Under the pieces are notes generated by a model. The model was not told where the DNA came from and did not search any database. It saw only the letters and a list, made by a program, of their open reading frames with translations. From the NCBI GenBank assembly GCA_900318115.1, contig ONJJ01000019.1:58863-122862 (forward strand): 64,000 bases of DNA, read 5' to 3'. Shown here piece by piece: positions 16,500 to 56,447 of this stretch. Position numbers and translations under genes: made by a program. The number at the start of each line of letters is the position of its first letter. Within the stretch, counting starts at the first letter, position 1. This DNA is from an uncultured Prevotellaceae bacterium. GTDB taxonomy: Bacteria > Bacteroidota > Bacteroidia > Bacteroidales > Bacteroidaceae.

Positions 16500-17651
16500 T
16501 TATTGGTTTGTTGCGGAGTTGGAGGGAGGGGGACCCGACGGGGAACCGTCGGGCACTGCGGCCTCGTGAACAGCGGGGGAGGCCGGAGGAACGGAGGTAG
16601 GAGGAACGGAGGTAGGAGGAACGGAGGTAAGGGGAACGGAGGTAGGGGGAACGGAGGCAGGGGAAACGGAGGCAGGGGGAACGGAGGTCAGGGCGAGGGC
16701 AGCCACGGCGTAGAGCCCGAGGACAGCTACGAGCAGGGTCTGAATCGTGTGGACAATGAGGGCGAAGAGGGCACCGTCGTTGCTATCGACTCCATAGAGC
16801 AGAAGCACCGTCTTCACCGCAAAGTGCCACGGACCGGCCCCGTTGGGAGTGGGGACCAGCACGGCAAAGGTGCCGACGACGAAGGCCACGAGCGCCACGC
16901 CCAGTCCCAGGCCGGAGGTGAAGCGGAAACAGAAGAAAGTCAGGTAGAAATGCAGGAAGTAGCACACCCAGATGGCAAAGCTGTAGAACCAGAATGTAGC
17001 CTTCCCCTCCACCTGGCGGATAGAGAGCAGTCCCTCCGTGAGTTCCTTCAGCACGGAGCGTGTCTTCGTCATGAACTGGAAACGGCGCAGCAGGATGTAA
17101 CCGGTCAGCACGACCAGCACCCCGCTGATGATGGTGACGAGCCACCCCGTCGTGGTGAAACGACCGAGAAAACCGCCCAGGGAAAGCCCCGTCTCGTGGA
17201 AGAAGCGCATGAAGACAGGAATCTGCAGCACGAAGACTCCCAGCGAGAGTAGCAGGATCATCGCCATATCCACCACGCGCTCCGTGACCACTGTGCCCAC
17301 GCCGCGGGTGAAGTTGCAGCCGTCGTAGCGCTTCAGCACCCCGCAGCGCAGTACTTCGCCCACGCGCGGAACCACCAGCGAGCTGGCATAGCTGAGGAAC
17401 ACCGCATTGATACTCGTGTGCGCGCGTGCCTCCTCGCCCAGCGGACGCAGCAATTGACGCCAGCGCAGGGCACGGAACACCTGGGCCAGGATGCCGAAGG
17501 GGAACGACAGCCACATCCACGTCCAGTTCATCTCGCTGGTGAGGGCCGTTTCCAGCGTCGCCCAGTCAAAGCCGCGGTACATCCACCACAAAATGGCAGC
17601 ACCGAGCGCCACGGGGAGCAGAATTTTGAGGATTGAGCGCAGTGTTTTCAA
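16500..17651 (-). CDS. Lysylphosphatidylglycerol synthase TM/flippase-like membrane protein
   Basis: Multi-pass inner-membrane protein of the UPF0104/LPG-synthase transmembrane family; members move or modify lipids, and the substrate is unknown here. Family segments include FLSYASSLVVPRVGEVLRCGVL, with a charged VVTERVVDM loop, and PTPNGAGPWHF. The longest frame begins at TTG 17675, but that codon lies within a leftward promoter box (TAAATTTGC); I therefore prefer TTG 17651 (LKTLRSILKILLP), giving 383 residues. The C-terminal 50 residues are a PP-x-SVPPTSVP repeat (15-bp units) followed by EAAVPDGSPSG from a family C palindrome, both absent from normal family members. Divergent from ksgA. Confidence 0.82.
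   Translation of the reverse strand: MKTLRSILKILLPVALGAAILWWMYRGFDWATLETALTSEMNWTWMWLSFPFGILAQVFRALRWRQLLRPLGEEARAHTSINAVFLSYASSLVVPRVGEVLRCGVLKRYDGCNFTRGVGTVVTERVVDMAMILLLSLGVFVLQIPVFMRFFHETGLSLGGFLGRFTTTGWLVTIISGVLVVLTGYILLRRFQFMTKTRSVLKELTEGLLSIRQVEGKATFWFYSFAIWVCYFLHFYLTFFCFRFTSGLGLGVALVAFVVGTFAVLVPTPNGAGPWHFAVKTVLLLYGVDSNDGALFALIVHTIQTLLVAVLGLYAVAALALTSVPPASVSPASVPPTSVPLTSVPPTSVPPTSVPPASPAVHEAAVPDGSPSGPPPSNSATNQ
16528..16566 (+). repeat. Family C palindromic element 2, at the 3' end of the flippase gene
   Basis: Perfect arms CCCGACGG (16534-16541) and CCGTCGGG (16546-16553), loop GGAA, then CACTGCGGCCTCG. Antisense reading EAAVPDGSPSG forms the protein's C-terminus. Confidence 0.8.
16585..16689 (-). 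repeat. 15-bp tandem repeat, seven units
   Basis: Units of the form GGAGGAACGGAGGTA encode SVPPT/SVPPA. Lies 19 bp from family C element 2. Confidence 0.9.
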
Positions 17652-17661
17652 TTCTTTTCCG

Positions 17662-17680
17662 TATTTTTGCTGCAAATTTA
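17662..17680. promoter_or_regulatory. Palindromic face-to-face promoter pair (ksgA / flippase gene)
   Basis: TATTTTTGC on the plus strand (17662-17670) and TAAATTTGC on the minus strand (17680-17672) are separated by one T, forming a near-palindrome around TTTGC-T-GCAAA. Both match TAnnTTTG. The two initiation regions must overlap, so the two transcripts would share antisense 5' ends. Confidence 0.6.
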
Positions 17681-17698: not shown

Positions 17699-18502
17699 AT
17701 GCCTACAGTAAAGCCAAAAAAGTTCCTCGGACAACACTTCTTAACGGATTTAACCATTGCTGAGCGCATAGCTGACACCGTAGATGCACTTCCGGACCTC
17801 CCAGTTCTGGAAGTAGGGCCTGGCATGGGAGTCATGACGCAGTTCCTCATGCAGAAGCCGCGACCGCTGAAGGTCGTGGAGCTGGACTTCGAGTCCGTGG
17901 ACTACCTCAGGCGCACCTGGCCGCAGATGGAGGACAACATCATCGAGGATGATTTCCTGAAGATGCACCTGGACCGCACCTTCGGCGGACAGCCTTTCGT
18001 GCTCACAGGCAACTATCCCTACAACATCAGCAGCCAGATATTCTTCAAGATGCTGGAAAATAAGGACTTGATACCCTGCTGCACCGGCATGATCCAGAAG
18101 GAGGTGGCAGACCGCATCTGTGCGCGTCCCGGCACTAAAGCCTACGGCATCCTCAGTGTGCTCATTCAGGCGTGGTACACTCCCGAATATCTGTTCACGG
18201 TGGAACCTGGTGTCTTCAACCCGCCTCCCAAGGTGCGCTCGGCGGTCATCCGCATGATGCGCAACGACACACAGGCGCTCGGCTGCGACGCCACTTTGTT
18301 TAAGAAGGTAGTGAAGACCACGTTCAACCAGCGTCGCAAGACGTTGAGAAACAATATCCGTCCGCTGCTCAACGAATTGGCGCCCGCGCTGGACCACGCG
18401 GCTTTCCTCTCTGACGATCTCTTCAATCTGCGGCCGGAGCAGTTGAGTGTAGCTCAATTCGTGGACCTGACGACTCGTGTGGCGCAGCACATACAGGGGT
18501 GA
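17699..18502 (+). CDS. ksgA: 16S rRNA dimethyladenosine transferase
   Basis: RsmA/KsgA dimethylates A1518 and A1519 of 16S rRNA late in small-subunit assembly. A longer frame opens at TTG 17633, but the conserved N-terminus MPTVKPKKFLGQHFL starts at ATG 17699, 29 bases after a TATTTTTGC promoter box, giving 267 residues, the usual length. SAM motif LEVGPGMGVMTQFL near 36-49 and the catalytic motif as TGNYPYNISSQ (NYPY in place of NLPY). C-terminal LRPEQLSVAQFVDL is typical. The stop codon lies in the first unit of the 22-bp repeat array. Confidence 0.95.
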   Translation: MPTVKPKKFLGQHFLTDLTIAERIADTVDALPDLPVLEVGPGMGVMTQFLMQKPRPLKVVELDFESVDYLRRTWPQMEDNIIEDDFLKMHLDRTFGGQPFVLTGNYPYNISSQIFFKMLENKDLIPCCTGMIQKEVADRICARPGTKAYGILSVLIQAWYTPEYLFTVEPGVFNPPPKVRSAVIRMMRNDTQALGCDATLFKKVVKTTFNQRRKTLRNNIRPLLNELAPALDHAAFLSDDLFNLRPEQLSVAQFVDLTTRVAQHIQG

Positions 18503-18978
18503 TACAGGCAAGATACCGAGATAATAGAGGCTGGCTGCCGCAGTAAAATAGACAAGATGCCGCGGTAATAGAGGCTGGCTCCCGCAGTAAAGCAGGTAAG
18601 ATGCCGCGGTAAAACAAACGAGATACCGGGATATTATTGGTAAGTTGCTGCGGTGATACAGACAAGAGACCGCGGAAGTACAGATAGTGGACCAAGATGT
18701 TATCATCGTTCGGCCGTGGCCGAACGAACGAACGGCCACGGCCGAATGATTAAACGGCCATGGCCGTTTGAAGTCAGCTGCCTGATAGGTCATTGTTGTC
18801 GGCCTGATAAGTCTTAGTCGGCGGCCTGATAGGTCATTGTTGTTGGCTTGATAAGTCTTAGTCAGCGGCCTGATAGGTCTTCGTCAGCGGCCTGATAGGT
18901 CTTCGTTGTCGGCCTGATAGGTCTTCGTTGACGGCCAGATAGGTCTTAGTCAGCTGCCTGATAGGTTATTGTTTTCGG
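18499..18978. repeat. 22-bp periodic repeat array between ksgA and rsmF
   Basis: The gap between these convergent genes is filled by contiguous 22-bp units. Segment a (18499-18674, eight units) has cores CCGCGG/CCGCAG plus AT-rich arms such as GTAAAATAGACAAGATG. Segment b (18707-18772, three units) consists of palindromes GGCCGTGGCC, GGCCACGGCC and GGCCATGGCC. Segment c (18781-18978, nine units) has units such as CCTGATAGGTCTTCGTTGTC. Core positions 18670, 18714, 18736 and 18758 fall in one exact 22-bp register; segment c follows at 23. There are no spacers, so it is not CRISPR. No gene seen inside. Confidence 0.9.
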
Positions 18979-18983
18979 CTTGA

Positions 18984-20660
18984 TTATTCCTTGTCGGCAT
19001 CAAAGAGGGAGGCGGGAGAGATGTAGGTGCTGCGGATTCGCCATTCTTTGGGATAGAGGTTGTTGGCTCGGTTGCCGAGGTTGTTCATCAGGCCGAGTCG
19101 CTGTCCGCAGTAGCATACCTGAACGATGCCGCGAGGTGTGTCGGGGGGCAGGACGAGGGCTTCGCGCTGGAGGTAGCGGATGGAATCGGCGAGGGAGAGC
19201 TCCACAAGCGGCGCGCCTTCGTGGTCCAGTTGGTCTGTAGGCAGAATGGGGAAGGTGGGGGCGGCTTGCTGCCTGGCCTTCTTTTTTGTTTTCTTCGCTT
19301 TCTTTTCCTTCTGGGACGAGGGGATTTCTTCGGCGGATAAGCTGTCGGGCGCCGTCGCCTCCGTGCCGCCGTGCTTGCGCAGAACAGCGAGGAAGAAACC
19401 TTCGCCGCGGATCTGGCCCGGGAGGAAATGATAGCAGGGGAGGGGGGAGGGGAGGACCGACGGTGACCCGTCGGCCACTACGGCTTCGTTTTTGGGGGCC
19501 TCGTTCTTTTGGGCCTCGTTTTTGGGGGCCTCGTTTTCTACGGCTTCGTTTTTGGGGGCCTCGTTTTTGGGGTCCTCGTTCTTTGGGGCCTCGTTTTCTG
19601 CGGCTTCGTTCTTTTTGGCCTCGTTTTCTACGGCTTCGTTTTTGGGGGCTTCGTTCTTTGCAGCCTCGTTTTCTGCGGCCTCGTCTTCTTGATGTTGCTG
19701 GAGGGGGCGGTTTTGATGATTCCGGAGGTCTCCGCGGATGTTCCATGACGGGTCAACGGGAATCGGGAGGACGTCGGCGCCCAGTTCGCGGGCTATCCAC
19801 TCCACGTTCCCCTCGTCCTCCTCGGGATTGAAGGTGCACGTGCTGTAGATGAGTAGTCCTCCTGGCTGCAGGGCTGGCCAGATATCGCAGATGATGCTGC
19901 GCTGCAAGGCGGCACACTCTGCCACGAAGGCCGGCGACCACTGCGCAACGGCCTCTGCTTCCTTGCGCATCATGCCCTCGCCGGAGCAGGGGACGTCCGC
20001 GAGGATGAGGCCGAAGGAGCTGGAGGGGAGAGGTTGCGCAGTGCGACCGCAGTCGGGGGCCGAGAACTGAGTGTGCGCAGTGCGACCGCAGTCGGGGACC
20101 GAGAACTGGGCGTGTGCGGTGCGAGCGCAGTCGGGGATCGTGAACTGCGCGTTGCGGACGGCCTCGGCGAGGTCTGCGGCGTAGGCCTGGGTGACAAGGA
20201 CATGAGGACTGCCCCACTTGGCCATGTTCTCCGCAAGGACCTGACAACGAGCGCGATTGGGCTCGTTGGAGACGAGCAGGCAGTCGTCGGGCAGCAGGCT
20301 TCGGAGCAGGGTGCTCTTGCCGCCCGGAGCGGCACAGAGATCCAGGGCGAGGCGTGGAGCCGGGCGGAGAGTGCGCAGTACATGAGCGAGAAACATGGAG
20401 GATGCTTCCTGTACGTAGTAGGCGCCGGCGTGGAGCAGCGGGTCGGCCGTGAAGACGGGTCGTTCCTTCAGATAGACACCCTCCTGGCACCAGGGCACTC
20501 TGCCGTCGGCACCTGCTGGCTCTGCATCGGGCGGCAGGCGCTTGGGATTCAGGCGAATGCTCGTGGCGGCTTCCGCATCGAGACCGCGCACGAGGGCAGC
20601 CACATCTTCCTCTTTCCAGTGGCAAAGGAAGTACTTTTCGAAGTCTTTTGGTAAATTCAT
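18984..20660 (-). CDS. rRNA cytosine-C5 methyltransferase (RsmF/NOL1-NOP2-Sun family), with repeat insertions
   Basis: SAM-dependent m5C methyltransferase acting on rRNA. N-terminus FEKYFLCHWKEEDVAAL, SAM motif LDLCAAPGGKSTLL, then ADVPCSGEGMM and the catalytic Cys in IYSTCTFNPEEDEGN; the C-terminal domain contains HFLPGQIRGEGFFLAVL and PRGIVQVCYCG. At 558 residues it is longer than its relatives because of two insertions: three 13-residue copies of AQFSVPDCGRTAH between SAM motifs, and about 70 residues of NEAPKNEAVE repeats ending in EAVVADGSPS, a family C element, between the catalytic and C-terminal domains. Start ATG 20660 lies right after a TAACTTTGC box, implying a leaderless or nearly leaderless mRNA. 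Divergent from thyA. Confidence 0.88.
   Translation of the reverse strand: MNLPKDFEKYFLCHWKEEDVAALVRGLDAEAATSIRLNPKRLPPDAEPAGADGRVPWCQEGVYLKERPVFTADPLLHAGAYYVQEASSMFLAHVLRTLRPAPRLALDLCAAPGGKSTLLRSLLPDDCLLVSNEPNRARCQVLAENMAKWGSPHVLVTQAYAADLAEAVRNAQFTIPDCARTAHAQFSVPDCGRTAHTQFSAPDCGRTAQPLPSSSFGLILADVPCSGEGMMRKEAEAVAQWSPAFVAECAALQRSIICDIWPALQPGGLLIYSTCTFNPEEDEGNVEWIARELGADVLPIPVDPSWNIRGDLRNHQNRPLQQHQEDEAAENEAAKNEAPKNEAVENEAKKNEAAENEAPKNEDPKNEAPKNEAVENEAPKNEAQKNEAPKNEAVVADGSPSVLPSPLPCYHFLPGQIRGEGFFLAVLRKHGGTEATAPDSLSAEEIPSSQKEKKAKKTKKKARQQAAPTFPILPTDQLDHEGAPLVELSLADSIRYLQREALVLPPDTPRGIVQVCYCGQRLGLMNNLGNRANNLYPKEWRIRSTYISPASLFDADKE
19452..19488 (+). repeat. Family C palindromic element 3, inside rsmF-like gene
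   Basis: Perfect arms CCGACGG (19457-19463) and CCGTCGG (19468-19474), loop TGAC, then CCACTACGGCTTCG. Read antisense as EAVVADGSPS. Confidence 0.8.
19481..19690 (-). repeat. 15-bp tandem repeat, 14 units, abutting family C element 3
   Basis: Units such as CGGCTTCGTTTTTGG encode NEAPK/NEAVE pentapeptides. The array begins within the palindrome's conserved tail (ACGGCTTCG), so the tail itself may have seeded the first unit. Confidence 0.9.
20037..20153 (-). repeat. 39-bp tandem repeat, three units, in rsmF-like gene
   Basis: Encodes AQFTIPDCARTAH, AQFSVPDCGRTAH and TQFSAPDCGRTAQ. The units add two extra copies of a segment within the methyltransferase core. Confidence 0.88.
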
Positions 20661-33960: not shown

Positions 33961-36621
33961 TTAATCAGCGTAGAAGACGTGCGTTCCCTGCTCCACCTGC
34001 ACGGTGCGGTCGGGCAGGTGGACGGTGGCGGTGCTGCCTACGGGCACACGGAGTTCCAGGCGGCGGAGCTGACCGTCGTGGCTGATGACGTGGGAGGTGA
34101 TGAGGCCTTGGGGAGTGGGGAGGCTGTAGTGGACGGTGTCTATGCCGACGGCAGGGCAGGGGAGAACGTCGAAATGTCGGTAGCCTGCGCCGTCAGGCGT
34201 CACGTTGATGCCAGCCAGCCTGCGGGGCAGCCAGGTCAGGCCGCCGCCGAACATGGGATGGTTGTGGGAGTTCTGGCCGTCCCATTGCTCCCAGGTCACC
34301 GTGGCTCCCTGCTCCAGCCAGTGGCCGTAGCTGGGGAAGTCGGTCTTCAGCATGGCGGTGGTGGCCACGTCGTGCAGGCCGTAGTCCGTGAGGGTTTCGA
34401 AGAAAAACTTGGTCGTGACGAACCCCGTGTTGATGTGTCCGCCGTGCGTCTCCATGATTTCGTGGCGCAGGGCCTGGATGACCTTCTGCTGGCGTTGCTC
34501 GGGCACTCTCATGTACAGGGCGAGGATGTTGGGGCCGAAGTCGCCGTAGCTGCCGGTGGCTTCATCGTAGAACTTGCGGTGGAAGGCTCGCCAGGTGCGC
34601 AGCTCCACGCCGTGGGCTTCTTCGTAGCCCGTGCGGTCGCCCAGCACTTGTGCCGTGCTGGCCGTGTTCTTGGCGCAGAGCCAGAGATAGAAGGTGTGTA
34701 CGATCTCGTCTGAGGGCATGCCGTAGGGCGGCACCCAGTCGCCGAGGTTCAGCCAGTAGATTGCTTCGCCCGTCTCGGGGTTACGCATCTGCTGGTACAT
34801 GGTGCTGTCCGGTGTCAGCCACGTCTGCATGTTGCGCAGCTGAGCCTGCATGGGGCGGTAGGCCTGTTGCAGTAACTGGAGGTCGCCGTACTGCAGGTAG
34901 TATTCCCAGGACATGGTGTTCAGCGCCGCGCCCCACGCCACGCCGCCTCCGCAGGTGGGTTGCCAGGGAGCGCCGTTGGGGACGTAGCCCGTGGCGGGGT
35001 TCTGTGCGTCGCGCATATCGCGAATCCATTTCTGATAGAAGGCTGCGGCGTCGAAGTTCAGCATCACCATCGCTGCTGCAATCTGGCCGTCGCCCGTGTA
35101 GGGCAGACGCTCGCGGTGGGGACAGTCGCTGGCGATGCCTCCGTGCATGTTGTCCAGCTGCGAGCGCACCCAGGCGGCGTAGATGCGGTTGATGAGCGGG
35201 TTGCTGGTGCGGAATGTGGCTGTGGGACGCACGTCGGTGTTCACGGCTTCGGCTTGTATCTGCCCGGCGATCAGCGACTCCAGGCCGCTGACCTCCACCT
35301 GCGAGAATACGAACCAGGTGAAGCGGGGCGCATAGCTGTGGCTTGAGTTTAGAGTTGAGGGATTAGAGTTTAGAGTTGAGAGTTTAGAGTTTAGAGATGA
35401 GGGCTTGCCTGCATAGAAGACTTGCTGCCCTAAAGGCGACTCGCTGATGTATTTCACTTCGATGCGTTGTCCCTCGGCGGCGCAGATGTCCTTCAGGCGC
35501 ACCCATCCTGCCACCTCCTTCTCGAAGGTGACGAGGAAGCTGCTGTCCCGGCGCTGGATGCTCACGGGTTGCAGCACTTCGGTGATGCGGTCGGTGGGTG
35601 CTGTGTGGGCGGTCAGCTTGCCCGTGGGGGGCGTAGCCGGCACGGCGCGCTGCCATCCGCTCTCGTCGATGCCCGGTTCTGCCCAGCCGGGTGTCTCCAG
35701 CCTTGCATCGTAGATCTCACCTTCGTAGATGCCGTTCATCGTGATGGCCGAGGGACGTGTGAGCCACGACTCGTCCGTGGCCACCACCTGGCGTGTGCCG
35801 TCGTCGTAGGTCACCTCGATCTGGCACAGCACACAGGCTTTGCCGAAGGTCCTGACGCGCCCGCTCTCGGTGTCGTAGAATCCCCGTCCGAGTATCAGTC
35901 CCGCAGCATTGTCGCCCTGGCGGAGCTGCGGCGTGATGTCGTAGGAAAGGTACATGATGCGGTAGCCGGTAAAGCGCGGGTCGATGGGTATGTTGCCTTT
36001 GTCCAGGTCCTGGCGCACGGAGTAGTTAGTGAGGTTCGGCACGAGATAGTCGTCGACCACGCGCTCGCCGTTGATGTACAGTTCGAAGAAACCGCCCGCC
36101 GTGACGAAAGCCTTGGCGCGCGCCACGCGGCGCTTCACCCGGAATGCCTTGCGCAGTAGCGGTGCGCCCTGCGACGGCTGCGGCGAGGTGATCCAGCGCG
36201 CCTGCCAGTCGGATTCCTTCAGCAGCCCCATGCCCCAGTGTCCCACGGGGCTCCACTTCGATCGCTTGCCGCGGACGTCCCACGTCTGCACCTTCCAGTA
36301 GCAGTCCTGGCCGGAGGCGAGCGCGCGTCCAGCGTAGGGCACCAGCACCGAGCAGTCCGAGGGCACGCGCCCGCTGTCCCAGAGATCATAGTGTCCGCGC
36401 CGCAGCCCTTCCTCCGTGGAGGCGACGACGATGCGGTAGGCCGTCTGGCGTTCGCCCGCCGCCTCCTCGTCACGAGGTTCATTGATCCACGATAGGCGCG
36501 GCTGCCGGGTGTCCACCACAGCCGGATTCACCATGTGCTCCACCGTCAGGCCCGTTACACGCAGCTGGGCGTGGCCGAGCAGCGGGAGCATTGCTATCAG
36601 AAGGAAAAGTATGTGTTTCAT
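33961..36621 (-). CDS. Alpha-L-rhamnosidase (GH78), exported
   Basis: 886 residues with signal peptide MKHILFLLIAMLPLLGHAQ. N-terminal Ig-like domain (VNPAVVDTRQPRLSW), rhamnosidase N domain (ARWITSPQ; FVTAGGFFELYINGERV), the (alpha/alpha)6 catalytic barrel with SDCPHRERLPYTGDGQ carrying acidic catalytic residues, and a C-terminal beta domain. An in-frame insertion at about 406-426 (SLNSKLSTLNSNPSTLNSS) comes from TTTAGAGTTGAG repeats at 35344-35404. Releases terminal alpha-L-rhamnose from plant or microbial glycans in the periplasm or outside. It lies 22 bp downstream of a mini-HTH gene with a promoter, probably one transcript. Confidence 0.93.
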   Translation of the reverse strand: MKHILFLLIAMLPLLGHAQLRVTGLTVEHMVNPAVVDTRQPRLSWINEPRDEEAAGERQTAYRIVVASTEEGLRRGHYDLWDSGRVPSDCSVLVPYAGRALASGQDCYWKVQTWDVRGKRSKWSPVGHWGMGLLKESDWQARWITSPQPSQGAPLLRKAFRVKRRVARAKAFVTAGGFFELYINGERVVDDYLVPNLTNYSVRQDLDKGNIPIDPRFTGYRIMYLSYDITPQLRQGDNAAGLILGRGFYDTESGRVRTFGKACVLCQIEVTYDDGTRQVVATDESWLTRPSAITMNGIYEGEIYDARLETPGWAEPGIDESGWQRAVPATPPTGKLTAHTAPTDRITEVLQPVSIQRRDSSFLVTFEKEVAGWVRLKDICAAEGQRIEVKYISESPLGQQVFYAGKPSSLNSKLSTLNSNPSTLNSSHSYAPRFTWFVFSQVEVSGLESLIAGQIQAEAVNTDVRPTATFRTSNPLINRIYAAWVRSQLDNMHGGIASDCPHRERLPYTGDGQIAAAMVMLNFDAAAFYQKWIRDMRDAQNPATGYVPNGAPWQPTCGGGVAWGAALNTMSWEYYLQYGDLQLLQQAYRPMQAQLRNMQTWLTPDSTMYQQMRNPETGEAIYWLNLGDWVPPYGMPSDEIVHTFYLWLCAKNTASTAQVLGDRTGYEEAHGVELRTWRAFHRKFYDEATGSYGDFGPNILALYMRVPEQRQQKVIQALRHEIMETHGGHINTGFVTTKFFFETLTDYGLHDVATTAMLKTDFPSYGHWLEQGATVTWEQWDGQNSHNHPMFGGGLTWLPRRLAGINVTPDGAGYRHFDVLPCPAVGIDTVHYSLPTPQGLITSHVISHDGQLRRLELRVPVGSTATVHLPDRTVQVEQGTHVFYAD
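35344..35404 (-). repeat. AT-rich tandem repeat inserted in frame in GH78
   Basis: Five degenerate GAGTTTAGAGTT units encode L-N-S-x-x-S-T. The composition is far from the GC-rich surroundings. Confidence 0.85.
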
Positions 36622-52071: not shown

Positions 52072-52291
52072 ACACTGCGGCTTTGACGGCGATGCCCCGC
52101 GGGATGAAGAAGCCTGCCCCGTGGGATGACGGAACCTGCAACGCGGCTTAGGCGGCGATGCCCCGCGGCCTTCGGGACGGTACGCCGCGGCTTTCGAGAC
52201 GGTACGCCGTGGTGTATGGGGCTGTGCCCCGCGGTGTGTGGGATGATACGCCGCGGTGTATGGGGCTGTGGCCCGCGGTGTGTGAGTTATC
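52072..52291. repeat. 22-bp periodic repeat array at the GH78 3' end
   Basis: Ten contiguous 22-bp units with core CCGCGG or CCGTGG at the same phase (for example ACGCCGCGGTGTATGGGGCT). The last unit includes the stop codon of the rhamnosidase gene. Same period and core as the array at 18499-18978 but different filler sequence. Confidence 0.9.
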
Positions 52292-55200
52292 GCGTCAGCA
52301 CTTTCCTGCCTCCGGCGATGTAGAGCCCGGCGCGCAGCCCCTGCAGCGAAGAAGGTTCGCTGCAGAGCTGGCGTCCGCTGAGGTCATAGACGGGACCGGC
52401 GGGGGTGTCTGTCGTGACGGCCGAGACGGCGTCCTTCAGGCGGGTGGTGAAGCGGTAGAATCCGGAGCCGAGGCGATAGACCTGGCAGCCGTCCTCGTAA
52501 CCCACATATTCCACCCCTTCGGCGTCGGCTGCGGGGCGCTCGCCCTCATAGACGGCAGTCTGGTCGCTGCCTACGGGCAGGTAGAGGGTGGCCGTGGTGT
52601 TGGCCGGCACGGTGCACTCGTAGGTGAAGCCGTCCTGGTCGGCCGTCTGCCAGGCGGAGCGGATTTCTCCGTAGTAGCTCTCGTGGCGGGCGCTGGCGGA
52701 GGTGATGAGTTCCTGGCCTGCGGGCAGTTGTTGGCGACGGTCTGGCTGGGGCTGGAGGATGATGTGTTTGAATCCGGGCTGCTGCTCGTCGTACTGAATA
52801 CCGCACATATAGCGATACATCCATTCGCCGACGGCGCCGTAGGCGTAGTGGTTGAAGCTGTTCATGCCAGGGTCGCCGAAGCCGCTTTCCTTGGTGTAGC
52901 TGTTCCAGCGCTCCCAGATAGTGGTGGCGCCCTGGTCCACGCTGTAGAGCCAGGAGGGGCACTTGCGCTGCAGGAGCAGGTCGTAGGCGAAGTCGTTCAG
53001 CCCGAAGCGCGAGAGGGTGGGGCCCAGCAGGGGTGTTCCGGCAAAGCCAGTGTTTAGCTTGTAGCTGTTGTTGCGGATGGATCGCGTGAGGCGTGTCTTG
53101 ATGTTCTCGATTTCCTGCTCGCCCTCGAGAAGGTTGAACTGCAGGGCCATGAGCAGTGCCGTCTGTGTGCCTTGGCGCACGGTGGGAGTGATGTAGCGGT
53201 GGCGGAACTCGTCTTTGATCTTCAGGAAGAGCTGGTCGTAGTGCTCGGCCTTCTGTGCGTAGGTGTCGGTGGCGCCCTCGCTGAGTGCGCGGCTCATCTT
53301 GGCCATGAGCTGCGTGACGTAGGCGTAGTAGGCCACGGCGATGTAGCGGGTGTCGGTGGTGACGAAGGAGAGCCAGTCGCCCCAGGTGAGGCCTCCGCCG
53401 TTGTACTGGTAGCCGTCGAAGACCTGCTTGGAGAGGTAGTTCATGTAGCGTTCCATGGATTCATAGCTCTCGCGGATGACGTCCTTGTTGCCCGTCATGA
53501 CGTAGAGGCTCCAGGGAACCACGATTCCGGCGTCGGCCCATACGGTCTGGCCGAAGGGTGTGCCCCAGCACTCGGGTGCCACTCCGGGGTAGGCGCCTTC
53601 TGCGTTCTGCCCGTCGCGCACGTCCTGCAGCCATTTGCGGTAGAAGGATTCCGTGTAGGCGTTGAAGAGTCCCGTGCAGGCGAACACCTGTGTGTCGGCC
53701 ATCCAGCCCAGCCGTTCGTCGCGCTGCGGGCAGTCCGTGGGCACGCTGAGCTGGTTGCCCCGCTGTCCCCAGGTGATGTTGGAGAAGAGCTGGTTGACGA
53801 GTGCATGGCTGGTCTCCACGAAGCCGCGGTCCTCGGTGGAGGAACTGACGGGCTGCGCCTCGATGGAGAGAATTTCGACATCGTCGGAGGGCGTGACCTC
53901 GCAGTAGCGGAATCCGAAGAAGGTGGTGGAGCTGTGGTAGCTCTCGCCGTCCACGGCGCCGCAGAGGGTGTAGTAGAGCGATGCCTTGGCCGAGCGGAGG
54001 TTGGCCAGATAGGGAGTGCCGCCGGGGCCGTCGTTACCTCGGCTGCGCGAGCCGGTGTCGTTCAGCATCTCGACGAAGCGCATTTTCAGGCGGTTGCCGG
54101 CGCGGCCCTTCACGCGGAAGTTGACCCACCCGACGATGTTCTGGCCGAAGTCGAAGACCACGGACTGCCCTTTCCGGACCACCACGGCGCCGGGGCCCTC
54201 GGTGGTGCTGACGGCGTTGGCCAGGCCGAAGTCCGTGCCGGTGCTCTTGACGCCCTCGTGGATGGTGGCGGTGCGCACTTGCTGGACTTTGTCGGGCAGG
54301 GTGCGGACGTAACCGCCCGTGAAGGCTTCGATCTTGCCTTTGAACTCCACGTTCTCGCGCACGGCATTCCATTGGCTGTCATCGTAGTCTGCCGCGGTCC
54401 AGTTGCTGGCCAGACGGGCATCGTAGATCTCGCCGTCGTAGATGTCGCCGAGCTTCAGCGCTCCGCCCTTGGAGGAGAGCCAACTGAGGTCGGTGACGAC
54501 GGTGTCCTCCGTGCCGTCGGCGTAGCGGATGAGCAGTTTTGCCAAGAAACCGAGGTTGGGGGAACCGTAGGCTCCGTGCATGACGGCTCCTGCCCACCAG
54601 CCGGGAGTGACCACGGCTCCGATGGCGTTCTTGCCCTGGGAGATGAGGGCGGTGACGTCGTGTGTGCTGTAGAAGACGCGGTAGCGGAAGTCGGTCCATC
54701 CGGGCTTCAGCTCCTCGTAGATGGTGGTGCCGTCGGGCTGCACGTGGCCTACTCGCTGTCCGTTCATGAACAGGTCATAGACGCCCAGTCCGCTGGTGAA
54801 CAGGGTGGCGGAGGCCACGGGCTTGTTGACGGCAAAGGTCTTGCGCAGCTGCGGCATGCCGCTGGTGGCGGTCTGCATGAGTCGTTTCTCGCCGGAGGGG
54901 GATTTCATGTGACACATGCGCGAGCCCTGGAAGTCCTCGACCTGGGCGTCGTAGAAGTAGTCGGAGGAGAGTGCCTCGAAGTCCTCGGAGAGGCGCACGT
55001 GGGGCGTGCCGTCGGCGTCGTACTCGGTGAGGACGAGGTTGTCGAAGTAGGCTTCCTCGCCGGCGTTGTTGTCCACGCGCAGGCCGATGTCGCCCCAGAC
55101 GGCGGTGCCCGTGTTGTCCGTGTAGGTGTCCACGAGCTGCCGGTCCACGTAGGTGCGGATGGTTGTGCCCTCGACCTCCACGCGGTAGTGGTGTAGGTGG

Positions 55201-56405
55201 CCGACGATGTCGCTCTTCTTCAGCTGGGTGAACTGAGCATCGTTCCAGGTGAGGTTGCCGTTGATGTATGTGTGATGGCGCACGGCGGGGTTGGCGTTGT
55301 CGTTGGCGTTGATCTGCCAGAGGTGGTAGGTGTTGGAACTGGTGGCGGCGAAGACGACGGCGGCGCTGGCCTTGACGAGAAACATATCGTAGTCCAGGGC
55401 GTAGTGGACGTGAGTGGCGTCGGTCTGCTTCTGCCACACGAGCACGTGGCTGGTTGTGGAACCCACGATGCGTAGCTTGCCGCCGGTCAGGGTCCCGCCG
55501 GTGAAGGCGTTGCCCTCGGAGAAGTCCTCGGCGAAGAGCACGTTGCCGCCAGGGGTGGTGACAAGGATGTCGTCATATACGCCAATCTCCTCGCGGGCGT
55601 CGCGCTGGCCGTGGTCCTGGCGCATGCCCACCCGGCCGTACTTGAAGTCGCCGGTGCGGTCGTCCACCAGCACGTCGTTGATGTAAGTCTTTGCGCGCGA
55701 GGCGCCGGTGATCTCGATGCGGAGGGTGAACTCGTCGGTGTTGTTCAGCGCCACCTTGCCGGTGAGGTTGATGTCGGCCAGGCAGGCGGGGTTGCCGTTC
55801 TTCCATACGTGGGGCCGCAGGCGCGGGAAGTCACCTTCGGTGTTGAGCTGCCAGAAGTAGAAGTTCGATGCGTCCTGCATGGCGAAGCATAGTCCGGCTG
55901 CCGTCCGCTCGATGCGCACCTTGCCTTCCACGGTGTAGTCGGTGATCTCGTCGGAGACCTGTCCGGCCGGCAGGTCGGTGGCTTGGATCCAGCGGGCACC
56001 GCTCCATCCTGTGCCCATCAGTCCGGTCTCGAAGTAGGCTGTCTCCGTCGAGGTGGCCGTCTGGCCTTTGTTGTCCTGCACGGTCACGCGCCAGTAGTAT
56101 CGCTGTGCCGGCTGGAGTGCCGAGGCGCTGACGCTGACGGCGACCGATTGCTGGCTCGGGACGAGGCCCGAGTCGAATACGATGTGCTCGCCCGCGGCGT
56201 CCGTGGAGAGCTGAAGCTGGTAGGCGGTCTGCACCACACCCCGCTCCTGCGACTGCAGCTGCCAGGTGAATTGAAGGTCGGATTGATCGATGCCGCTGGG
56301 GTTGCGCAGGGTCTGCACGCGCAGGTTGTCAACGGTCAAGGCCCAAGTGCTTGCGCAGGTGGCGAGTGCGAGCAGTGTGCTCAGGAAGAAAGTCTTTTTC
56401 TGCAT
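52287..56405 (-). CDS. Large alpha-L-rhamnosidase (GH78) with lectin-like inserts and sorting tail
   Basis: 1372 residues from ATG 56405 (MQKKTFFLSTLLALATCAST); the longer frame to 56441 overlaps a promoter box. Order: signal peptide, Ig-like domain (about 20-125), two LamG/concanavalin-like domains (about 145-300 and 305-460; TDYTVEGKVRIERTAAGLCF, HVHYALDYDMFLVK), rhamnosidase N domain (NGQRVGHVQPDGTTIYEELK), (alpha/alpha)6 barrel with TDCPQRDERLGWMADTQVF, beta domain, then DLSGRQLCS and a tail ending AGLYIAGGRKVLTR. The lectin-like pair is an addition to the standard GH78 plan and may bind polysaccharide. Upstream of, and on the same strand as, the GH13-led operon, separated by the 22-bp array. 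Confidence 0.9.
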   Translation of the reverse strand: MQKKTFFLSTLLALATCASTWALTVDNLRVQTLRNPSGIDQSDLQFTWQLQSQERGVVQTAYQLQLSTDAAGEHIVFDSGLVPSQQSVAVSVSASALQPAQRYYWRVTVQDNKGQTATSTETAYFETGLMGTGWSGARWIQATDLPAGQVSDEITDYTVEGKVRIERTAAGLCFAMQDASNFYFWQLNTEGDFPRLRPHVWKNGNPACLADINLTGKVALNNTDEFTLRIEITGASRAKTYINDVLVDDRTGDFKYGRVGMRQDHGQRDAREEIGVYDDILVTTPGGNVLFAEDFSEGNAFTGGTLTGGKLRIVGSTTSHVLVWQKQTDATHVHYALDYDMFLVKASAAVVFAATSSNTYHLWQINANDNANPAVRHHTYINGNLTWNDAQFTQLKKSDIVGHLHHYRVEVEGTTIRTYVDRQLVDTYTDNTGTAVWGDIGLRVDNNAGEEAYFDNLVLTEYDADGTPHVRLSEDFEALSSDYFYDAQVEDFQGSRMCHMKSPSGEKRLMQTATSGMPQLRKTFAVNKPVASATLFTSGLGVYDLFMNGQRVGHVQPDGTTIYEELKPGWTDFRYRVFYSTHDVTALISQGKNAIGAVVTPGWWAGAVMHGAYGSPNLGFLAKLLIRYADGTEDTVVTDLSWLSSKGGALKLGDIYDGEIYDARLASNWTAADYDDSQWNAVRENVEFKGKIEAFTGGYVRTLPDKVQQVRTATIHEGVKSTGTDFGLANAVSTTEGPGAVVVRKGQSVVFDFGQNIVGWVNFRVKGRAGNRLKMRFVEMLNDTGSRSRGNDGPGGTPYLANLRSAKASLYYTLCGAVDGESYHSSTTFFGFRYCEVTPSDDVEILSIEAQPVSSSTEDRGFVETSHALVNQLFSNITWGQRGNQLSVPTDCPQRDERLGWMADTQVFACTGLFNAYTESFYRKWLQDVRDGQNAEGAYPGVAPECWGTPFGQTVWADAGIVVPWSLYVMTGNKDVIRESYESMERYMNYLSKQVFDGYQYNGGGLTWGDWLSFVTTDTRYIAVAYYAYVTQLMAKMSRALSEGATDTYAQKAEHYDQLFLKIKDEFRHRYITPTVRQGTQTALLMALQFNLLEGEQEIENIKTRLTRSIRNNSYKLNTGFAGTPLLGPTLSRFGLNDFAYDLLLQRKCPSWLYSVDQGATTIWERWNSYTKESGFGDPGMNSFNHYAYGAVGEWMYRYMCGIQYDEQQPGFKHIILQPQPDRRQQLPAGQELITSASARHESYYGEIRSAWQTADQDGFTYECTVPANTTATLYLPVGSDQTAVYEGERPAADAEGVEYVGYEDGCQVYRLGSGFYRFTTRLKDAVSAVTTDTPAGPVYDLSGRQLCSEPSSLQGLRAGLYIAGGRKVLTR

Positions 56406-56438
56406 AGTCGGAATGAGTCTTTGATGTCTTTCTGGCTG

Positions 56439-56447
56439 CAAAAGTAC
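56439..56447 (-). promoter_or_regulatory. Promoter of the large GH78 gene
   Basis: TACTTTTGC on the minus strand, 33 bases before ATG 56405. Confidence 0.65.

Follow-up and report, generated by a model that had tools for sequence, protein, structure and literature searches.

The gap between ksgA and a convergent rsmF-like gene, in a window of 64,000 nucleotides from an uncultured Prevotellaceae bacterium, consists of 22-bp units from end to end, and comparable arrays, with different letters, lie elsewhere in this genome and in related ones, preferentially at gene 3' ends. We judge the chances to be about even that the gap is an old minisatellite built of hairpin units, whose turnover through slippage and template switching preserves the register. 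The source genome (G000; 3.33 Mb in 74 contigs) has as its nearest named kin mostly rumen metagenome-assembled genomes labelled Bacteroidales, Bacteroidaceae or Prevotellaceae; the KsgA of one, the sister genome RUG11694 (G043 in the locus comparisons), is 93% identical to that of the window. The features of the gap are as follows.

17699-18502, plus strand: ksgA/rsmA, 16S rRNA adenine dimethyltransferase (TIGR00755), upstream neighbour of the gap array
18492-18689, no strand: segment a, nine units of 22 bp, of which several have a CCGCGG- or CCGCAG-type core
18690-18777, no strand: segment b, units with GGCCGTGGCC / GGCCACGGCC / GGCCATGGCC dyads
18778-18990, no strand: segment c, CGGCCTGATAGGTC units reaching the rsmF stop
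18984-20660, minus strand: RsmF-like rRNA methyltransferase gene, convergent neighbour of the gap array

When cut every 22 bases, positions 18492-18990 resolve into spacer-free units throughout, as a sequence-only reading had described for the slightly shorter stretch 18499-18978; the identity at lag 22 is 0.629 over the former and 0.631 over the latter. The other lags from 10 to 59 (44 omitted) give a mean identity of 0.244 and a maximum of 0.316 over 18492-18990, and the best of 50 lags did not exceed 0.342 in any of 500 dinucleotide shuffles of the gap, which rules out a chance origin of the period. Each segment is periodic alone (lag-22 identity 0.58 in a, 0.59 in b and 0.75 in c); segment a additionally has a 44-bp higher-order pattern (lag-44 identity 0.68), and segment c contains five exact copies of CCTGATAGGTC. 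The register takes in the stop codons of both ksgA (TGA, 18500-18502) and rsmF (18984-18986), and the cores at 18670, 18714, 18736 and 18758 do lie on multiples of 22, as had been claimed. Repeats of other kinds occur in the neighboring coding sequence. The rsmF-like gene has in-frame 15-bp and 39-bp repeats (19478-19684 and 20035-20152), the 15-bp ones (19478-19684) encoding an NEAPKNEA-type linker, and its Pfam methyltransferase-domain match is split into two stretches; seven 15-bp repeats at 16588-16693 form the TSVPP-type C-terminal tail of an ORF on the minus strand (16500-17675).

The three segments differ in symmetry. Segment b had been credited with three perfect palindromes, and GGCCATGGCC is one; GGCCGTGGCC and GGCCACGGCC are instead reverse complements of each other, with identical arms and an inverted 2-nt centre, and by eye the GT/AC centres of the units at 18712 and 18734 differ by just this inversion. 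A dyad test is strong for segment b (p 0.002), borderline for a (p 0.056) and not significant for c (p 0.645); similarly, folding as single-stranded DNA exceeds that of shuffles in a (z -3.4) and b (z -7.3), with no excess in c (z -0.36). Segments a and b are in phase, with dyad centres 11 apart modulo 22 and b palindromic across its whole unit, and their likeness is greatest in register (rank 1 of 22 shifts). Placing c in register with either of them brings no gain in likeness over other shifts (rank 7 of 22 each); hence, segment c has only the period in common with a and b.

The period proved to be widespread. A scan of 110 loci around ksgA, partly overlapping and with genes unmasked, yielded 30 lag-22 arrays and 20 at lag 44, as against 5 at the next richest lag (18), 3 each at 21 and 23, and none at 17, 19, 20, 25 and 26. 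Among non-coding arrays, lag 22 is the richest of all lags between 17 and 33 in the stretches taken from each of three genomes of the genus: 5 arrays in 330 kb of G000 including the window (0, 1, 0, 3 and 0 at lags 20, 21, 23, 25 and 26; richest other lag 32, with 4), 16 in 800 kb of G043 (3, 3, 3, 1 and 2; richest other lags 18 and 27, with 6 each) and 12 in 369 kb of G016 (1, 6, 0, 0 and 0; richest other lag 21, with 6). Thresholds were not uniform across the different scans. When non-coding tandem regions were assigned to their best lag between 12 and 40, 61 of 115 arrays fell at lag 22, after 40 simple-repeat arrays with a strong period under 10 had been dropped. Twenty-kilobase stretches from 20 nearer genomes of the order (382 kb) held 6 lag-22 arrays and those from 20 farther ones (385 kb) none; on this 40-genome sample, the class seems confined to the Bacteroidaceae and nearer relatives. 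The arrays occur in many independent assemblies, so we reject an assembly artefact as a general cause, and one (L078) is carried by an isolate, Bacteroides rodentium JCM 16496. Since the scans mask ORFs, they miss the array at L159, which overlaps ORF ends and came to light on inspection of the matching place, and there may be others of this kind. A second class of tandem repeats, with units of 7-8 bp (GAGTTTA, TGTCGAAG and others), is partly non-coding and was seen at the following places.

Window, 35345-35403: 7-8 bp tandem class
L132, 3963-4151: 7-8 bp tandem class
L136, 7061-7238: 7-8 bp tandem class

The sequence-only reading had expected further arrays at gene 3' ends, and these were found: 19 arrays lie between convergent genes, 25 between co-directional and 5 between divergent ones, with 4 unclassified, against a background of gaps of at least 100 bp comprising 123 convergent, 375 co-directional and 150 divergent cases (p 0.003 for the surplus of convergent cases and p 0.03 for the shortage of divergent ones). 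Moreover, 19 of the 25 co-directional arrays are nearer to the stop than to the following start. Gene calls here are greedy longest ORFs, and a spurious antisense ORF has put the window's own ksgA array among the co-directional ones; L014 may be misplaced in the same way. The gene-context counts include one array twice, as L024 and L179, both on a contig of 167034 bases (as do the dyad, best-lag and CCNNGG counts), and both L009 and its repeat L139 (the later dyad, mismatch, best-lag, conservation, covariation and core counts start at L010); loci from related species are non-independent, and L064 and L070 are nearly one array. At L014 (4763-4980), the array extends into the end of ksgA, whose last codons are written in the repeat, and therefore arrays can alter protein ends. 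The bias to 3' ends and convergent gaps, along with dyad arms long enough for short stems, raises the possibility of an RNA-level element, namely, tandem 3'-end hairpins that would end transcription from both sides or protect mRNA. Against this, no Rfam family matches the window at its gathering score; the four matches on the gap lie far below it (E 0.05-0.41), and a structured RNA known to Rfam is thereby rejected for the gap. The arm mismatches described below also speak against RNA pairing, and we regard such an element as quite improbable.

Dyad symmetry of the unit was detected in 32 of 62 lag-22 arrays at p<=0.05, where about 3 are expected, and in 17 at p<=0.01; by lag, dyads (p<=0.05) were present in 45 of 80 arrays at lags 21-24 versus 5 of 35 others. 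About half of the lag-22 arrays, segment c included, are without a significant dyad. Across 31 arrays, the symmetric part of the unit spans about 18 bp, and its two outermost positions are the least conserved (0.62 versus 0.73 in a permuted control). Nine of ten hand-picked stretches fold better as single-stranded DNA than their shuffles (z -3.4 to -7.3), the exception being segment c.

The arms of these dyads covary. We compared neighbouring units in 45 arrays chosen for a dyad, using a control in which the partner position is slid by 1-3 bases. Arm pairs with both positions changed kept their complementarity 14 times out of 18, compared with 12 of 62 for the control (p 9e-6), for units alike at 13 or more of their 22 positions; the fractions were 63/93 versus 104/357 for all units and 6/10 versus 5/39 for units alike at 15 or more, with the proviso that, arrays having first been chosen by consensus dyad, the covariation set overlaps with that of the dyad test, and that orthologous arrays are non-independent. 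A compensatory example across species, noted by eye, is GTCTCAC..GTGAGAC in G000 (L342) versus GTCCCAC..GTGGGAC in G043 (L278). Such covariation points to pairing of the arms with each other, as a homodimer reading its half-sites singly would give no such dependence. Pairing at the RNA level would make G.U-compatible mismatches outnumber A.C ones; among the 31 dyad arrays, using those with one adjoining gene end, the sense strand has 18 G.T and 27 A.C mismatches, with no G.T excess. Hence, covariation without a G.T excess suggests that it is the DNA arms that pair. Inversion of the spacer between the arms looked promising by eye as a further hallmark, yet there is a single strict case, as against 34 neighbours in the same orientation and 21 others.

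These findings bear on the proposal, made in the sequence-only reading, of a protein that binds a CC-N2-GG core. We find little to sustain it, and reject a general core of this type: of 62 arrays, 6 repeat CCNNGG in register (both window arrays, L031, L139, L167 and L209) and 1 repeats GGNNCC, segment c is dyad-less, and the arms covary. A more general version is a protein lattice, in which homodimers, one per dyad and spaced by about two helical turns, would contact one another along one face of the DNA, for example, to separate convergent transcription units, the different families being sites of paralogues that fit one lattice. The dyads of about 18 bp with their poorly conserved outermost positions and the 3'-end placement would suit such an arrangement, as would an excess of the core ACACGTACGGACGTG in G000, G003, G010, G016 and G043. 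In G043, ACACGTACGGACGTG has 40 matches with up to 2 mismatches (control 10). Across 61 genomes of the genus, there are 60 matches with up to 1 mismatch versus 21 for the control, the excess being confined to those five genomes (41 matches versus 2: 4 in G000, 10 in G003, 6 in G010, 7 in G016 and 14 in G043, the control giving 0-1 per genome). It is far from being a general core, however; 21 of the 61 genomes have a match and 19 have a control match, and some matches are coding (L341 and the single ones L359 and L360). Moreover, independent half-site contacts leave the covariation of arms within a family unexplained, and the families differ strongly between the sister species. On balance, and considering also the imperfect phasing described below, we hold a lattice to be unlikely.

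Orthologous loci offer a direct view of how arrays change. Of five loci matched between G000 and G043, four have arrays in both species, two of these with unlike letters. In the ksgA gap, the array in RUG11694 is written in different letters (sister TTCCATGGNGATGGAACAANGG), as are the arrays at L134/L159, where L159 has a lag-22 identity of 0.93; those at L136/L273, matched via one flank, are diverged, and L342/L145 has the same composite in both. The fifth, the window array at 52082-52290, is without an equivalent in G043. Given that 49 arrays were classified against 648 gaps, four of five matched sites would be far above expectation, few as the loci are. The claim that the period is kept despite sequence change therefore holds in the gap and beyond it, in many lag-22 arrays and in the sister ksgA gap; of the two outcomes that the sequence-only reading had named as speaking against its view, neither is seen, as the genome has more arrays and the related genome is periodic at this locus. 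In the ksgA gaps, CTTGATTAT is common to the last unit of segment c and one of the sister's last units, and with this anchor hand arithmetic places the sister dyads within 1-2 bp of the window grid; an automatic alignment instead puts a 9-base gap between the two grids. One gene upstream of ksgA, the gap has arrays in four of the six species that have the gene pair, in two unlike families, and of the remaining gene pairs represented in four or more species just one has any arrays (2 of 9). By eye, L036 and L044 differ mainly by one unit that has changed wholesale.

Composites are common among the arrays, and several combine unlike families in a recurring order. In G043, this order consists of a block (i) of ATGCAGC-AG-GCTG, then 1-2 units (ii') of TGTCTCAC..GTGAGACA, and a block (iii) of ACACGTACGGACGTGT. 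By eye, the order i, ii', iii or its reverse complement is found at L262/L317, L272, L278 (the same as L145) and L340 in G043 and at L342 and L343 in G000, the genome of the window; (ii') is missing from L147 and L314, where (i) and (iii) are present, and at L318 two units of another kind separate (i) from (iii). The dyad centres fall by eye on one 22-bp grid at L262/L317, L272, L278, L340, L342 and L343, which favours the lattice, and are off the grid by 3 bp at L147 and by 2 bp at L318. The automatic test of neighbouring blocks is less favourable to it: 8 of 13 pairs join unlike families, and the dyad offset modulo 11 is 0 in 3 of the 8 and 2-5 bp in the other 5, a few of which have no significant dyad on one side. 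The samples also differ in shared unit 8-mers on the grid, with 22 in that of G043 and none in those of G000 and G016.

Some families are dispersed in G043. TTCCATGGCGATGGAA has 36 matches with up to 2 mismatches (control 0), its palindromic sites counting twice because both strands were searched, and GATGCAGCAGGCTG has 46 with up to 1 mismatch (control 2); four single matches of TTCCATGG lie inside ORFs. These dispersed families lead us to reject purely local duplication as the source of every array. They also suggest a mobile-element origin, in which arrays would be MITE-like bodies, akin to BrickBuilt, that carried the units and in many cases are now without ends. In keeping with this, L145 and its orthologue L342 lie between inverted repeats of 20-24 bp and L336 between 26-bp ones, and several of the copies in G010 (L351-L355) have a common leader, a common tail or both. 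An exact inverted repeat of at least 11 bp spans the ends of just 5 of 43 arrays, though, and the notion that every array is a MITE body is rejected; the two that share long ends are orthologues, and no such repeats surround the window's arrays. A general MITE origin for most arrays is unlikely, and we would assign a low probability to this account of the class. Three observations on element ends stand by themselves. AAAAAGNGCGCACCTGTCACC is a dispersed end (L289-L310 in G043 and L342 in G000; 22 matches to its core in G043, 0 in the control) that in several copies is part of a hairpin with a T run and at one orthologous locus encloses a composite 22-bp array in both species. The five G010 arrays each have several 22-bp units and one ACACGTAYGGACGTG unit; by eye, the leader is common to four and the tail (about 150 bp) to four, with both in L351, L352 and L355, and they are a BrickBuilt-like element in another member of the genus. 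In G043, a longer repeat is dispersed in two copies, L320 and L336, which share a flank (ATGAATTCGAGACATGAATTGCATCC onward) and enclose a composite array.

The window has one further array of the class.

52082-52290, no strand: second 22-bp array, GCCGCGGT-type units (CCGCGG)

An alpha-L-rhamnosidase gene on the minus strand (52287-56441) ends directly at this array, which has a lag-22 identity of 0.63, versus at most 0.46 in shuffles; RUG11694 has no lag-22 run at the matching place, where a 977-aa ORF lies between the flanks. The segment a motif is not dispersed (11 matches versus 18 in the control). That of segment c has 25 matches versus 7, of which 8 are within the gap array; of the other 17, 12 were inspected, and 11 of these are in ORFs and none in a lag-22 run. 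The undispersed motif of a and the nearly exclusively coding outside matches inspected for c count against a MITE origin, and a dispersed element carrying the window's own units is rejected, these families being undispersed as far as inspected.

Several known systems invite comparison. REP elements are palindromic, extragenic, biased to 3' ends and partly dispersed, and the arrays resemble them in all four respects; spread by a RAYT (Y1 transposase) would thus be one conceivable cause. G000 has 3 matches to Y1_Tnp and G043 has 1, a weak one, and GTAG or CGTC, on either strand, is on the grid in 14 of 62 arrays, a count that has no control. Conversely, the array carriers G016, G119, G138 (whose lag-22 array is weak and AT-rich) and G147 have no match to Y1_Tnp (PF01797), and the unit sequences vary between loci. 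With Y1_Tnp not found in several carriers, we exclude REP/RAYT as a general cause and consider it very improbable indeed for the gap. Like REP/BIME elements, the arrays are short, palindromic, extragenic and at 3' ends; unlike them, they run head to tail at 22 bp, have locus-specific sequence and occur in several carriers without a detected RAYT. Bacterial minisatellites and VNTRs have tandem units that vary by whole-unit number, and the arrays are set apart from these in general by a period preferred across the clade, by the symmetry of their dyads and by covarying arms. Plasmid iterons, and direct repeats to which cooperative multimers such as BldC bind, are regular protein-binding sites along DNA; there, one sequence serves one protein, whereas the arrays change letters within one register.

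The closest described things come from Porphyromonas gingivalis: the tandem direct repeats of 22, 23 and 41 nt in W83, and BrickBuilt, a 23-nt minisatellite/MITE (PMC4596501). These too are intergenic, dispersed, spacer-free tandem repeats of 22-23 nt in Bacteroidales, with variable copy number, a conserved and a variable part of the unit and predicted stem-loops (PMC4596501). BrickBuilt has a single unit family, mostly a leader and a tail, and small terminal inverted repeats (PMC4596501), whereas the arrays include several families per genome and composites on one grid, are unlike at orthologous sites and mostly lack terminal repeats, dispersal being seen for G043 families and not for those of the window. 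One conserved repeat at all loci is not what we find, segment c being private to its locus as far as inspected, nor is a leader and tail with terminal inverted repeats (5 of 43 arrays), though some G010 copies have both leader and tail. The view that no element of such design had been described must therefore be qualified by the P. gingivalis repeats; in the open-licence literature, outside which most subscription papers lie, we found no account of a class defined by period with variable sequence.

Taking these findings together, we return to the hairpin-unit minisatellite. Roughly half of the lag-22 arrays have units, about 22 bp long, that form an inverted repeat of up to 18-20 bp, so that such a unit can fold into a small hairpin when single stranded. 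Whole units would be gained, lost and exchanged through replication slippage and recombination between units; as changes would then come in steps of 22, the register would outlast homogenisation into families such as a, b and c, and the single register running through all three would be due to descent. The complementarity of the arms might be kept by template switching during replication or by weak selection for hairpins. In yeast, template switching is reported to homogenise the arms of inverted repeats and to invert their spacers (PMC8604942), and according to a further account it can both create and maintain hairpins with compensatory changes (PMC8794818). Arrays would persist where they harm neither promoters nor reading frames, that is, after stop codons and between convergent genes, and no dedicated function would be necessary. 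The selection on spacing proposed in the sequence-only reading is possible and not needed for one register if arrays are old and turn over unit by unit.

Certain observations fit this minisatellite less well. Slippage and template switching alone do not predict the sharp peak at 22, and a unit length of 22 (dyad arrays mostly 21-24) would need either descent of every family from one ancestor or some molecular ruler. The recurrence of ACACGTACGGACGTG in five species is more conservation than neutral turnover suggests, and the recurring order of families i, ii', iii, the rarity of spacer inversion (a second mark of template switching) and the roughly half of the arrays without a significant dyad, segment c among them, likewise count against it. 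One possibility is that a dedicated structure-recognising system with a 22-nt ruler, in Bacteroidaceae and near relatives, copies hairpin units in register into gene 3' ends whatever their letters, such that the grid would be inherited at each site and the sequence replaced; we think this distinctly unlikely.

If the hairpin-unit minisatellite is correct, these arrays would represent a class of bacterial repeats defined by step and symmetry rather than by sequence, and the class would therefore be invisible to similarity searches. They would offer a natural test bed both for the upkeep of inverted-repeat arm complementarity at the level of DNA and for whatever holds the unit at 22 bp across a group of gut and rumen bacteria. 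Should the grid be functional, it would mark where transcription units end, in organisms in which the biology of 3' ends has received little study.
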